DNA of 34,142 nucleotides, taken from Chryseobacterium sp. (GTDB lineage Bacteria; Bacteroidota; Bacteroidia; Flavobacteriales; Weeksellaceae). This document shows, piece after piece, positions 8,800-12,247 of the stretch. The position numbers and the translations under genes are program-made. The stretch spans positions 12,706-46,847 of the forward strand of contig JADMKO010000010.1 in assembly GCA_015478785.1 (NCBI GenBank), written 5' to 3'. Within the stretch, counting starts at the first letter, position 1; every line of letters begins with the position of its first letter. The notes under the pieces were generated by a model. It ran no database searches, was not told the origin of the DNA, and saw nothing but the letters and a program-made list of their open reading frames with translations.

Positions 8800-9660
8800 T
8801 TAATCCATAAGTTTGCGGAGATATTCCCCGTATCCGCTTTTTCCGTACTTTTCTGCGGCCGCCAGCAATTCTTCATTGTTGATGAATCCCTTTTGCCACG
8901 CGATTTCTTCGATACAGGAAATTTTAAAACCTTGTCTTTTTTCCAGAACTTTTACGAATTCTGAAGCTTCGTGCAGTGAATCGAAAGTTCCGGTGTCCAG
9001 CCAAGCTGTTCCGCGCGACATAACGCCCACTTCCAGATTTCCTTTTTGCAGATAAATTTTGTTGATATCGGTGATCTCCAATTCGCCCCGCGGTGAAGGT
9101 TCTAAATTCTTGGCATATTCCACTACAGAATTGTCATAAAAATATAACCCGGGAACCGCATAATTGGATTTTGGTTCTGAAGGTTTTTCTTCAATGGAAA
9201 TGGCTTTGAAATTTTCATCAAACTCTACCACACCGTACCTCTCCGGATCTGAAACCTGATACGCAAAAACGCAACCACCCTGAACGTTGGTTTTGCTTTC
9301 CAGTAACTGTGGCAAACCGGCTCCGTAAAAAATATTATCGCCCAATACCAATGCTACAGAATCATTACCAATAAACGCTTCGCCCAAAATAAACGCCTGA
9401 GCCAAGCCATCCGGTGAAGGTTGAGTTTTGTATTCAATTCGGCAACCGATTTGTGAACCATCACCGAGTAATTTTTTAAAAGCCTCCTGATCATGCGGTG
9501 TTGTGATGATCAATATTTCGCGGATTCCTGCTAACAAAAGCACAGAAAGCGGATAATAAATCATCGGTTTATCGTACACCGGCATCAGCTGCTTGCTGAC
9601 CGCAATCGTAAGTGGAAAAAGTCTGGTGCCGGAGCCGCCTGCTAAAATTATGCCCTTCAT
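8800..9660 (-). CDS. rmlA: Glucose-1-phosphate thymidylyltransferase RmlA
   Basis: This 286-residue protein makes dTDP-glucose from dTTP and glucose-1-phosphate. The nucleotidyltransferase signature [11 protein letters not shown] starts at 8, [16 protein letters not shown] follows, the metal-binding Asp108 lies in LGDNIFYG, and the second metal/substrate region is [14 protein letters not shown]. It is in the same direction as rmlB and ugd, but 179 bases separate it from rmlB, and that gap contains a gene remnant and short repeats. No -7 box is seen in the gap, so read-through from upstream is likely. rmlC and rmlD are absent here, so the final sugar (rhamnose or another 6-deoxyhexose) cannot be fixed from this window. 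Confidence 0.97.
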
Positions 9661-9666
9661 TTTTTT

Positions 9667-9690
9667 GAATTTAAGCGAATTTAGGCGAAT
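9667..9690 (-). repeat. Short tandem repeat before rmlA
   Basis: On the plus strand GAATTTAAGC (9667-9676) is followed at once by GAATTTAGGC (9677-9686) and GAAT (9687-9690). This is a 10-base unit repeated about 2.4 times with one mismatch. It lies a few bases before the rmlA ATG, beside the gene remnant. It could be part of that decayed element or a chance slip repeat. Confidence 0.55.
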
Positions 9691-9716
9691 GCCTCGAGTT
9701 TTTCGCTGTTATAGAT

Positions 9717-9821
9717 TTATAATTCGTTTATATTTAAACCATTTCCGATAGTGGAATGAATATTCATACAAATTCCGATAACTTTGTAACTCTCTTCTTT
9801 GTATAAAATTTCCTTTTCCAT
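9717..9821 (-). pseudogene. Remnant resembling a GxxExxY protein gene
   Basis: A 34-codon reading frame begins MEKEILYKEESYKVIGICMN and continues IHSTIGNGLNINEL before a stop. This resembles the N-terminus of GxxExxY proteins (a PDDEXK-nuclease-like family of about 120-130 residues), which typically open with ILYKxESYxIIGxxxxVHKxLGxGF. The match ends at the Gly-Asn-Gly-Leu of that pattern and everything after it is missing, so the gene looks deleted for about three quarters of its length. Intact members commonly sit among Bacteroidota surface-polysaccharide genes, which fits the position between rmlB and rmlA. The assignment is from memory of the family pattern only. An unrelated small peptide is the alternative. 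Confidence 0.6.
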
Positions 9822-9839
9822 CAATTAGTGGAATTCGTT

Positions 9840-10931
9840 TTAATTAGAGTCATTCGCATACTGCGAAGTATAATATTCCTGATAATTACCCGAGGTCACA
9901 TTCTCCAGCCAATCTTTGTTTTCCAGAAACCAATCAATTGTTTTGGAAAGTCCTTCTTCGAAAACTACAGAAGGTTTCCAGCCCAGTTCATTGGCTAATT
10001 TGGTGGCATCAATAGCGTAGCGTTTGTCATGTCCTGGGCGGTCTTTCACGAAGGTAATGAGTTTCTCAGAATAACCTGCCGGTTTTCCGGTTTTTTCATC
10101 AACTTGCTTGATGAGTTCTTTCACAAGATTGATATTCTGCCATTCATTCCAACCTCCGATGTTGTAGGTTTCGCCAGTTTTCGCTTCATGGAAGATCTGG
10201 AAAATCGCTTTGGCGTGATCAATGACATACAGCCAGTCGCGGGTATATTTTCCGTCGCCATAAATAGGAAGCGGTTTTTCGTTCAGAATATTATGAATAC
10301 AAAGCGGAATCAGTTTTTCCGGAAAATGATTTGGTCCGTAATTATTGGAACAATTGGAAATGATGAAAGGCATTCCGTACGTATTTCCATAGGCTCTTAC
10401 CAAATGATCGGAAGCAGCTTTGCTGGCGGAATACGGTGATTTCGGATCGTATGGAGTTTCCTCTGTAAAGAATCCGGTTTCGCCCAAAGCTCCGTACACT
10501 TCATCCGTGGAAACATGATAAAAAAGATTTGTCCGTTTTTCATTTGGAAAATTTCCGTGTTGATGCTCAGGATTCAGCGTCCAGAATTCTCTGCAGAGAT
10601 TCAGAAGATTCGCAGTTCCGTTTACATTCGTGTTGATGAATGCGTTTGGATCAGTAATGCTTCTGTCAACGTGGGATTCTGCTGCCAGATGAACAATAGC
10701 TTCGGGCTGATATTTTTCAAAAACAGCTTTCAGTTCTTCCGGTTTGGTAATATCGGCTTTTTCAAAAATATAATTGGGTTCGTTTTCAATGTCTTTCAGG
10801 TTTTCAAGATTTCCTGCGTAGGTGAGCGCATCCAGATTGATTACTCTGGTTTGCGGGAGGTTTCTTACAAATTCCCTCACCACATGGGAACCAATAAATC
10901 CGGCGCCGCCGGTGATGATGATGTTTTTCAT
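9840..10931 (-). CDS. rmlB: dTDP-glucose 4,6-dehydratase RmlB
   Basis: This 363-residue short-chain dehydrogenase/reductase superfamily enzyme converts dTDP-glucose to dTDP-4-keto-6-deoxyglucose using bound NAD+. The Rossmann motif GGAGFIGS is at 8-15. The active-site Thr142-Asp143-Glu144 lies in HVSTDEVYG, and the catalytic Tyr167 and Lys171 in SPYSASKAASD. All are intact and the length is normal. The start lies 2 bases after the ugd stop, so translation is probably coupled to ugd. Together with rmlA it supplies the common intermediate for dTDP-rhamnose and related deoxysugars of surface polysaccharide. Confidence 0.97.
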   Translation of the reverse strand: MKNIIITGGAGFIGSHVVREFVRNLPQTRVINLDALTYAGNLENLKDIENEPNYIFEKADITKPEELKAVFEKYQPEAIVHLAAESHVDRSITDPNAFINTNVNGTANLLNLCREFWTLNPEHQHGNFPNEKRTNLFYHVSTDEVYGALGETGFFTEETPYDPKSPYSASKAASDHLVRAYGNTYGMPFIISNCSNNYGPNHFPEKLIPLCIHNILNEKPLPIYGDGKYTRDWLYVIDHAKAIFQIFHEAKTGETYNIGGWNEWQNINLVKELIKQVDEKTGKPAGYSEKLITFVKDRPGHDKRYAIDATKLANELGWKPSVVFEEGLSKTIDWFLENKDWLENVTSGNYQEYYTSQYANDSN

Positions 10932-10933
10932 AG

Positions 10934-12247
10934 TTAAGGTGTAATAGTTTTTCTTCCGATGGATTTGTAATAAAATCCGTTTTGTTCCGCAAGTTCTAAC
11001 GGAAACATATTTCTGCCGTCAAATATAACTTTGTTTTTTAACTTTTCTGCCATCAGTTTAAAATTCGGATTTTTGAATTCCGGCCATTCTGTGGCGATTA
11101 ACAAACAATCGGCACCTTCCAGCGCAGTGTACATATCCTTTGCATATTCAATTTGATCGCCTAAAATTTTGCGTACATTTTCTTCCGCCGCGGTGTCATA
11201 GGCAATTACATTAGCTCCTCTTTCCAGAAAAATACGAATATTGTCCAAAGAAGAAGCTTCCCGAATATCATCAGTACTTGCTTTGAAAGCTAATCCCCAA
11301 ACTGCGATTTTAATGCCCTGAAGTTGGCCATCAAAATAATTATCGATTTCTTCAGCCAGAATAACTTTCTGTTTTTGATTTACTTTTTCCGTTGCTTCGA
11401 GAATTTTAAAATCATAATTTTCATTTTTGCCTGATTTTATCAATGCTTTCACATCTTTCGGAAAGCAACTTCCTCCATATCCTATTCCCGGAAATAAAAA
11501 CCGATGCCCGATTCTGTCGTCACTTCCCATCCCAAGTCGGACCTGATCTACATCTGCACCCACTTTTTCGCAATAATTTGCAATTTCATTCATGAACGTA
11601 ATTTTCACGGCAAGAAAAGAATTAGCAGCATATTTAGTGAGTTCAGATGATTTTTCATCCATGAAAATAATCGGAATCCCTGTATTGGTAAACGGTTGAT
11701 AAATTTTGGACATAATTTCTTTTGCTCTTTCGGAAGTGCTGCCTACTACAACACGAGCAGGATTCATAGCGTCTTCCACAGCAAAACCTTCGCGCAGAAA
11801 TTCAGGATTTGATACCACATCGAACGGTAAATCTGTCTTTGAGAGAATAACTTCCCGAACCTTATCCGCAGTTCCCACCGGAACGGTAGATTTATTAACA
11901 ATCACTTTGTAATCGGTCATCAGCGATCCAATTTGCTCCGCTACACCTAATACATAAGAAAGATCTGCAGAACCGTCTTCGCCCGGAGGCGTTGGTAATG
12001 CGAGATAAATTACCTCACTTTTCGGGATGGCTTCCGCAAGTTCGGTGGTAAAATGAAGCCTTTCTGCCTGAATATTCCTCAGAAACATTTCCTCGAGGCC
12101 GGGTTCATAAATGGGAACAATGCCGTTTTTCATTTTTGCGATTTTGGACGCATCCACATCCACACAATACACCGAATTTCCTAATTCAGCTAAGGTAGTT
12201 CCCGTAACCAGCCCTACATATCCTGTTCCTACGATGGTGATATTCAT
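10934..12247 (-). CDS. ugd: UDP-glucose 6-dehydrogenase
   Basis: This 437-residue protein oxidises UDP-glucose to UDP-glucuronate with NAD+. It starts MNITIVGTGYVGLVTG, the Rossmann nucleotide-binding loop. EPGLEEM near 48-54, the NKSTVPVGTADKV segment (119-131), KYAANSFLAVKITFMNE (205-221) and the catalytic Cys261 in GYGGSCFPKD are all typical of the UDP-Glc/GDP-Man dehydrogenase family. It heads a leftward operon with rmlB 2 bases behind. UDP-glucose dehydrogenase is preferred over GDP-mannose dehydrogenase from the GSCFPKD motif and overall look. The closely related UDP-sugar dehydrogenases (WbpA/WbpO type) are less likely but not excluded. Confidence 0.93.
   Translation of the reverse strand: MNITIVGTGYVGLVTGTTLAELGNSVYCVDVDASKIAKMKNGIVPIYEPGLEEMFLRNIQAERLHFTTELAEAIPKSEVIYLALPTPPGEDGSADLSYVLGVAEQIGSLMTDYKVIVNKSTVPVGTADKVREVILSKTDLPFDVVSNPEFLREGFAVEDAMNPARVVVGSTSERAKEIMSKIYQPFTNTGIPIIFMDEKSSELTKYAANSFLAVKITFMNEIANYCEKVGADVDQVRLGMGSDDRIGHRFLFPGIGYGGSCFPKDVKALIKSGKNENYDFKILEATEKVNQKQKVILAEEIDNYFDGQLQGIKIAVWGLAFKASTDDIREASSLDNIRIFLERGANVIAYDTAAEENVRKILGDQIEYAKDMYTALEGADCLLIATEWPEFKNPNFKLMAEKLKNKVIFDGRNMFPLELAEQNGFYYKSIGRKTITP

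Follow-up and report, generated by a model that had tools for sequence, protein, structure and literature searches.

Background

A gap of any size inside an operon raises the question of what once filled it, and a short open reading frame inside that gap sharpens it. The ugd-rmlB-rmlA operon of a Chryseobacterium sp. poses both. It lies on the minus strand of the stretch of DNA analysed here (34,142 nucleotides in full, hereafter the window), and a 34-codon frame separates rmlB from rmlA. We asked what this frame is, how it came to be there and whether comparable genes elsewhere share its surroundings. The window feature is confirmed to be a piece of a GxxExxY gene (TIGR04256/PF13366, PD-(D/E)XK nuclease superfamily). 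By itself the wreck is ordinary, and its value is as a pointer to the architecture of the GxxExxY family.

The remnant between rmlB and rmlA

In the direction of transcription the operon carries ugd, of the UDP-glucose 6-dehydrogenase family (10934..12247, minus strand; TIGR03026, 3.1e-133), rmlB, a dTDP-glucose 4,6-dehydratase (9840..10931, minus; NCBIfam TIGR01181, 2.4e-135), and, downstream of the remnant, rmlA, a glucose-1-phosphate thymidylyltransferase (8800..9660, minus; TIGR01207, 1.3e-146). Only 2 bp separate ugd from rmlB, which leaves the 179-bp stretch between rmlB and rmlA as the sole sizeable gap of the operon, as an initial annotation of the window had stated. The 34-codon frame that it houses (9717..9821, minus) was confirmed and reads MEKEILYKEESYKVIGICMNIHSTIGNGLNINEL before its stop (34 aa). 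Sequence and profile match together divide it into about 29 N-terminal GxxExxY residues, five foreign residues and the stop codon.

The annotation had taken this frame for a decayed GxxExxY gene. Against the curated models the 34-residue peptide stays below the cut-offs because of the deletion described below (TIGR04256, 14.9 bits, E 0.026, cut-off 35; PF13366, 13.2 bits, E 0.12, cut-off 22). A profile made of seven full-length proteins from the rmlB-rmlA gap of other genomes, with the window left out, matches 29 residues of the remnant at 46.0 bits (E 4e-13) and ranks it first among 1556 window frames, the runner-up reaching 6.5 bits; this bears the assignment out. At the DNA level the N-terminal part is identical to the C. 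koreense copy at 75 of 86 positions. Just downstream, in the other frame, the original gene's final nine codons and stop (9709..9738, minus) read FKYKRIINL, which is the C-terminus of full-length orthologs (LNYKRIINL or LKYKRIINL before the stop). Both ends of the gene are therefore retained.

Intact copies stand in the same gap of relatives, where the annotation had suggested looking for them, and two of these (L011 in genome G030 and L049 in G148) locate the break. The window copy keeps its start and then jumps at GGTTT to TTTAAA near the 3′ end, with the deletion junction TTT/AAA at 9733..9738 (minus). Missing are 267 bp plus one base, or 268 bp in a single step. The lost segment includes the second half of the GxxExxY motif, which is cut after GNGL, and the D and ExK catalytic residues; when the remnant was checked for a complete motif and for these residues, the motif was incomplete and the residues were gone. 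No full-length GxxExxY gene above threshold was found in the window's own assembly (92.6% complete, 187 contigs). The word "truncated" in the annotation is right in that the gene is incomplete, but "internally deleted" describes it better since C-terminal codons remain.

The remnant is flanked by two repeat arrays. The left one (9822..9857, minus) has four degenerate CACGAATTA-type units of about 9 nt and provides the stop codon of rmlB, whose final codons (ANDSN and stop) fall within it; a comparison of rmlB tails shows that empty sites end differently, for example YHEQYQA and stop in L002. This array aligns with the left ends of L142, L144, L146 and L141 at scores of 84, 78, 83 and 54. The right array (9667..9698, minus) is inverted relative to the left one and eroded, with ATTCG units every 9-10 nt. 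The two window ends match each other weakly as inverted repeats (score 18 vs 12.9 for shuffles, p 0.034), and the fold of the remnant is likewise not strong (z -1.97).

Occupied and empty sites

Searching 59 genomes for the rmlB-rmlA pair gave matches in 53, from which 30 loci were fetched; both genes lie on the retrieved stretch in 27. Three of these 27 gaps are GxxExxY-derived, namely the window remnant, a frameshifted copy (L003, genome G011) and the intact L011. Eight hold a four-helix-bundle S23-type frame (L005, L007, L008, which is broken, L010, L012, L013, L022 and L023), thirteen measure at most 61 bp, including one of 3 bp in the same-genus genome G001, and three are of other kinds (L018, L026, L030 (different large frame in gap)). 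The S23 identity is based on TIGR02436 matches at the places of L013 and L022 and on BLASTP similarity for the rest, which also divides these genes into three groups. At least four different inserts have therefore used this gap, and the S23-type ones are bounded by inverted tandem repeats of about 8 nt whose units differ (e.g. GTGATGAG, TGTGAAGA and ACCACTAA). A separate internal deletion has removed the catalytic core from the copy in the rmlB-rmlA gap of Kaistella yonginensis (L149:1501-1776) and left both repeat arrays in place. With the gene broken in the window, L003 and L149, its proposed dispensability at rmlB-rmlA holds, and so does the idea of an insertion point, the same gap being filled by unrelated inserts in other genomes. 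The suggested variable polysaccharide locus is better described as a conserved operon pair that accepts inserts.

Two of the rmlB-rmlA gaps (L018 and L004, 127 and 57 bp) contain inverted repeats without a gene that resemble solo ends of an S23-type insert. A table in PMC5524665 places a four-helix-bundle gene between guanylate kinase and nicotinate-nucleotide adenylyltransferase in two strains of Flavobacterium columnare; going by that table, this is another short operon gap with a four-helix-bundle insert.

GxxExxY genes occur in 90 of 148 genomes of the bacterial family, with a maximum of 10 copies. The full-length L049 protein from the rmlB-rmlA gap scores 143.2 bits with TIGR04256 and 133.6 bits in a second score, above the cut-off, and it has both the motif and the catalytic residues. 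The L049/L011 protein led to 199 confirmed relatives, of which the best 80 were retained. Grouped by the similarity of both flanks, these 80 represent 20 sites, with 48, 9, 4, 2 and 2 loci plus fifteen singles. The top nine all sit at the rmlB-rmlA gap and include Frigoriflavimonas asaccharolytica, Chryseobacterium taeanense, C. koreense and K. yonginensis. The 48-locus site is the gap between a methionine aminopeptidase and a methyltransferase gene (identified in L172 and L154), and the 4-locus site that between miaB and a sigma54 regulator (identified in L215). The special link to surface polysaccharide genes that had been drawn for GxxExxY is not upheld: 48 of the best 80 relatives share one other gap and only 9 of them are at rmlB-rmlA, and we reject a specific tie. 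Protein likeness among the copies of one genome reaches at most 67-72%, and seven of eight sites in genome G090 are common to its congener G141. Thus there is no recent burst of GxxExxY within genomes, and the copies are mostly old residents.

The aminopeptidase-methyltransferase gap was followed in Flavobacterium and its kin, with matches in 155 of the 246 genomes searched and 30 loci fetched. Seven of the 30 loci have only 0-23 bp between the aligned flanks, and L226 and L231 lack an insert although their flanks are 84-90% identical to those of the occupied L172. Nine other loci carry an intact GxxExxY gene from a second clade that shares about 34-40% identity with the first; their arrays are of the CACAAAG/CGCAGAG type in place of CACGAATTT. 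Another site has the gene in genomes G132 and G159 and a solo array in G178; both are lacking from G162 and G184, whose flanks are 91-93% identical to those of G159. Comparison by eye with empty sites whose flanks are about 80-90% identical showed no recognisable target-site duplication. Two loci of the aminopeptidase-methyltransferase gap (L224 and L237) have palindrome-bearing inserts of 133-146 bp without a gene; the L224 palindrome is CCTGCAAGGTTTTCAAAACCTTG-like, a different kind of intergenic repeat.

Repeat arrays at the ends of GxxExxY genes

Intact GxxExxY genes are usually bordered by arrays of tandem repeats of about 8-10 nt, the two arrays being mutually inverted. For each locus the left and right flanks, 220 bp each, were compared as inverted repeats by local alignment with a threshold score of at least 28, and flanks shifted outward by 700 bp served as the control. 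Among the 80 named loci, two were too short for the test and four at the 700-bp offset; the threshold was reached in 66 of 78 as against 1 of 76 at 700 bp. Median end scores in the family's best-scoring 30 GxxExxY and 30 S23 loci were 31 and 26, vs 18 and 18 in the control. When every copy was taken from four genomes (three picked for high copy number plus the congener G001), inverted ends were present in 19 of 27 vs 0 of 27, and inverted or direct ends in 20 of 27 vs 3 of 27. Inverted ends were thus missing at this threshold in 8 of 27 copies, and direct instead of inverted repeats occur at some GxxExxY copies.

The end repeats differ strongly among the copies of one genome (for example AACACTTAAGTTAC, AACCGCAAAAGCGACAAAAG and AACCACAAAAGTCACAAAAG among L281, L284, L273 and other loci of G090, G092 and G141), yet they pair within each copy. 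In three genomes the mean match of an end was 37.8 with its own partner vs 21.5 with the partners of others, 39.2 vs 21.2 and 39.4 vs 21.9 (p<1e-4). Within a genome, the arrays are therefore private to each copy, the left one matching the right. Own-partner ends are also better in the S23 set (27.4 vs 19.5) and among orthologs at the 48-locus site (z 6.5; p 0.0002 for 15 non-redundant loci), while at the rmlB-rmlA site they were no better than other-partner ends (n 9, p 0.78).

Array type tracks gene phylogeny. On a tree of 121 copies, 100 of them with an array label and the 21 others excluded, the type changes 8 times, as compared with at least 24 changes in 300 shuffles. A tree thinned to one or two copies per site requires 6 changes vs at least 9 in shuffles (33 labelled of 44 copies, 11 excluded).

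Repeats and genes also go together in number. The motif CACRRAGN{1,2}CACRRAG, whose reversed-pattern control is rare, has 633 matches over 148 genomes, and its tally correlates with GxxExxY number (Spearman 0.63; partial 0.58 given S23 counts) and not with S23 number given GxxExxY (-0.07). Over 33 genera the correlation is 0.85; after genus centring, through which alone genome size was controlled, r is 0.37. In one genus (g9, 20 genomes) tally and gene number are unrelated (rho -0.13), and G154, with 16 repeat matches and no GxxExxY match, is an exception to the relation. Repeats are found in genomes also alone, with no gene beside them. The pattern ACGAATTN{1,3}ACGAATT, with 41 matches among those listed in 32 of 148 genomes, was too infrequent for correlation and had no match in the window's genome. 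At G092:C1:161387-161685 and G078:C1:1892941-1893519, pairs of CACAGAG-type repeats follow one another at intervals of ~130 bp with no GxxExxY gene among the matches listed; there the arrays themselves have therefore been tandemly amplified.

Predicted fold of the full-length protein

Across 15 GxxExxY proteins, G26, G28, E31, Y34, D71, E81 and K83 are invariant. The C. koreense protein (L144) was modelled with AlphaFold2 from a 30-row alignment, with a mean pLDDT of 94.1 and a pTM of 0.86. The model's top PDB match is SSO0001 (Foldseek E 1.6e-4; VIA Z 9.4 over 101 residues at 4.3 A), which we take to be a Cas4 exonuclease. Further matches are an alkaline exonuclease, lambda exonuclease and Cas4-family proteins, with the proviso that VIA Z values below 8 in this list may reflect merely a common arrangement. 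Conservation is complete at D71, E81, K83 and Y99 and almost complete at Q95. The model thus supports the prediction that the full-length GxxExxY protein is a minimal Cas4/RecB-like PD-(D/E)XK nuclease. PMC8934634 gives a case of one gene named cas4 by one program and GxxExxY by another.

Discussion

We conclude that the window feature is probably a dead, internally deleted, repeat-bounded nuclease element that was once inserted at the end of rmlB. Such a one-gene element would consist of a GxxExxY nuclease gene between two inverted arrays of short tandem repeats. Its nuclease may recognise the arrays of its own lineage and may drive, or once have driven, the insertion, excision or turnover of the element. 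By analogy, this action would parallel that of RAYT transposases, which are thought to act in this way on REP repeats. The window copy is incapable of it, as the catalytic core is lost and no intact copy was found in the assembly. In favour of this reading are the gene remnant with its deletion, the intact orthologs and empty sites at the same place, the inverted and privately matched ends, the agreement of array type and repeat number with the gene, and the predicted fold. Points that count against it are the failure to recognise a target-site duplication, the lack of a recent burst, the 8 of 27 copies short of inverted ends, the missing gene-repeat relation in genus g9 and in G154, the weak match and fold at the window itself, and the rmlB-rmlA site, where own-partner ends fitted no better than others.

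Beyond this locus, it is possible, at somewhat less than an even chance, that GxxExxY genes provide the activity of a widespread class of DNA elements, apparently not described before, in which the Cas4-like nuclease of each lineage would recognise private tandem-repeat ends, with intergenic S23 elements and 23S rRNA intervening sequences (IVS) as a second branch. No description of repeat-bounded GxxExxY elements was found in the literature searched, whose scope excluded subscription journals and preprints; the repeat strings searched as text returned nothing relevant, and GxxExxY is mentioned merely in passing in the literature found. Other intergenic heptamer repeats are treated in PMC4679880, which raises the idea of a mobile repeat-binding protein.

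Three other explanations deserve consideration. An IVS-like RNA element would account for the tolerance of the insert inside operons. In this view the two arrays pair in the transcript to a long hairpin that carries the gene in its loop, as in the 23S rRNA intervening sequences that RNase III excises. The RNA of L172 can indeed form a stem of about 54 bp closing the gene (-143.8 kcal/mol, z -8.7, 0 of 100 shuffles), S23 genes, the gene family of IVSs, share the end architecture at rmlB-rmlA and elsewhere, and PMC4990558 describes a Coxiella IVS that has an S23 ORF, inverted repeats at its termini and a stem of 28 bp. We nevertheless regard this explanation as unlikely. Some copies have direct instead of inverted repeats, and the end mismatches of 107 elements are without G-U bias on the coding strand (214 G-U vs 279 A-C type, 0.43; cross-pair control 0.45). 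With that bias sought and absent, the RNA hairpin was rejected as the selected feature, and action on DNA is therefore tentatively preferred; the strong L172 fold is the reason to retain the RNA element as a rival.

Less likely again is a second rival. Here the arrays would belong to the host as resident REP-like repeats or regulatory hairpins and act as spots of recombination, and the nuclease gene would be a passenger with another job such as defence or repair. Solitary repeats and the inheritance of most sites between congeners agree with this. Against it, array type tracks gene clade even at one identical site, the ends are private to each copy, and repeat counts follow GxxExxY counts better than S23 counts. 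That the 34-codon frame is a conserved small protein and no wreck is very improbable. It is open and close to the GxxExxY N-terminus, but the short frame is absent from all the other rmlB-rmlA gaps among the 27 read, and the original C-terminus stands out of frame right behind it. We rejected this candidate, as the other gaps contain a full-length, broken or absent gene or a different insert; family match and full-length versions alike thus speak against the outcome that the annotation had named as its refutation.

A nuclease element with its own ends gives this common gene a new appearance, that of a part of a small mobile element coming and going at particular gene gaps. The private matched ends are an obvious candidate substrate of the GxxExxY nuclease, which brings its function within reach of a test that needs one such protein and the repeat beside its gene. 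The architecture common to GxxExxY and S23 elements also opens a new way into the question of where rRNA intervening sequences come from, a matter that PMC4990558 describes as unclear.

Comparison with known systems

The remnant, whose full-length same-place ortholog L049 reaches 143.2 bits, is a piece of a member of the GxxExxY family (TIGR04256, PF13366 PDDEXK_3) and differs from it in lacking the second half of the motif and the catalytic core. With Cas4, lambda-exonuclease and RecB-type nucleases, GxxExxY proteins appear to share the fold and the D, ExK and Q/Y positions; they differ in having only 126 residues, the comparison being one of predicted fold.

REP/RAYT units, as described in PMC2817692, where RAYT stands for REP-associated tyrosine transposases, likewise have a single gene between inverted repeats, copies of which also stand alone, and a repeat type tied to gene type. 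GxxExxY differs in its predicted PD-(D/E)XK fold, which is not that of a Y1/HUH transposase; a Pfam scan of L049 and L172 found PF13366 alone and no Y1/HUH transposase gene. Its ends differ too: each copy has private arrays built of ~8-10-nt tandem units.

The Coxiella 23S rRNA IVS (PMC4990558) resembles GxxExxY elements in its size of about 0.4-0.6 kb, its one small gene, its patchy distribution and the inverted repeats at its ends, which could pair into a long stem. GxxExxY elements differ in lying between protein genes, in carrying a predicted nuclease gene and in having no sign of selection for RNA pairing. The window copy is not a 23S rRNA IVS, for its place is the rmlB-rmlA gap and its sequence is part of a GxxExxY gene, not S23.
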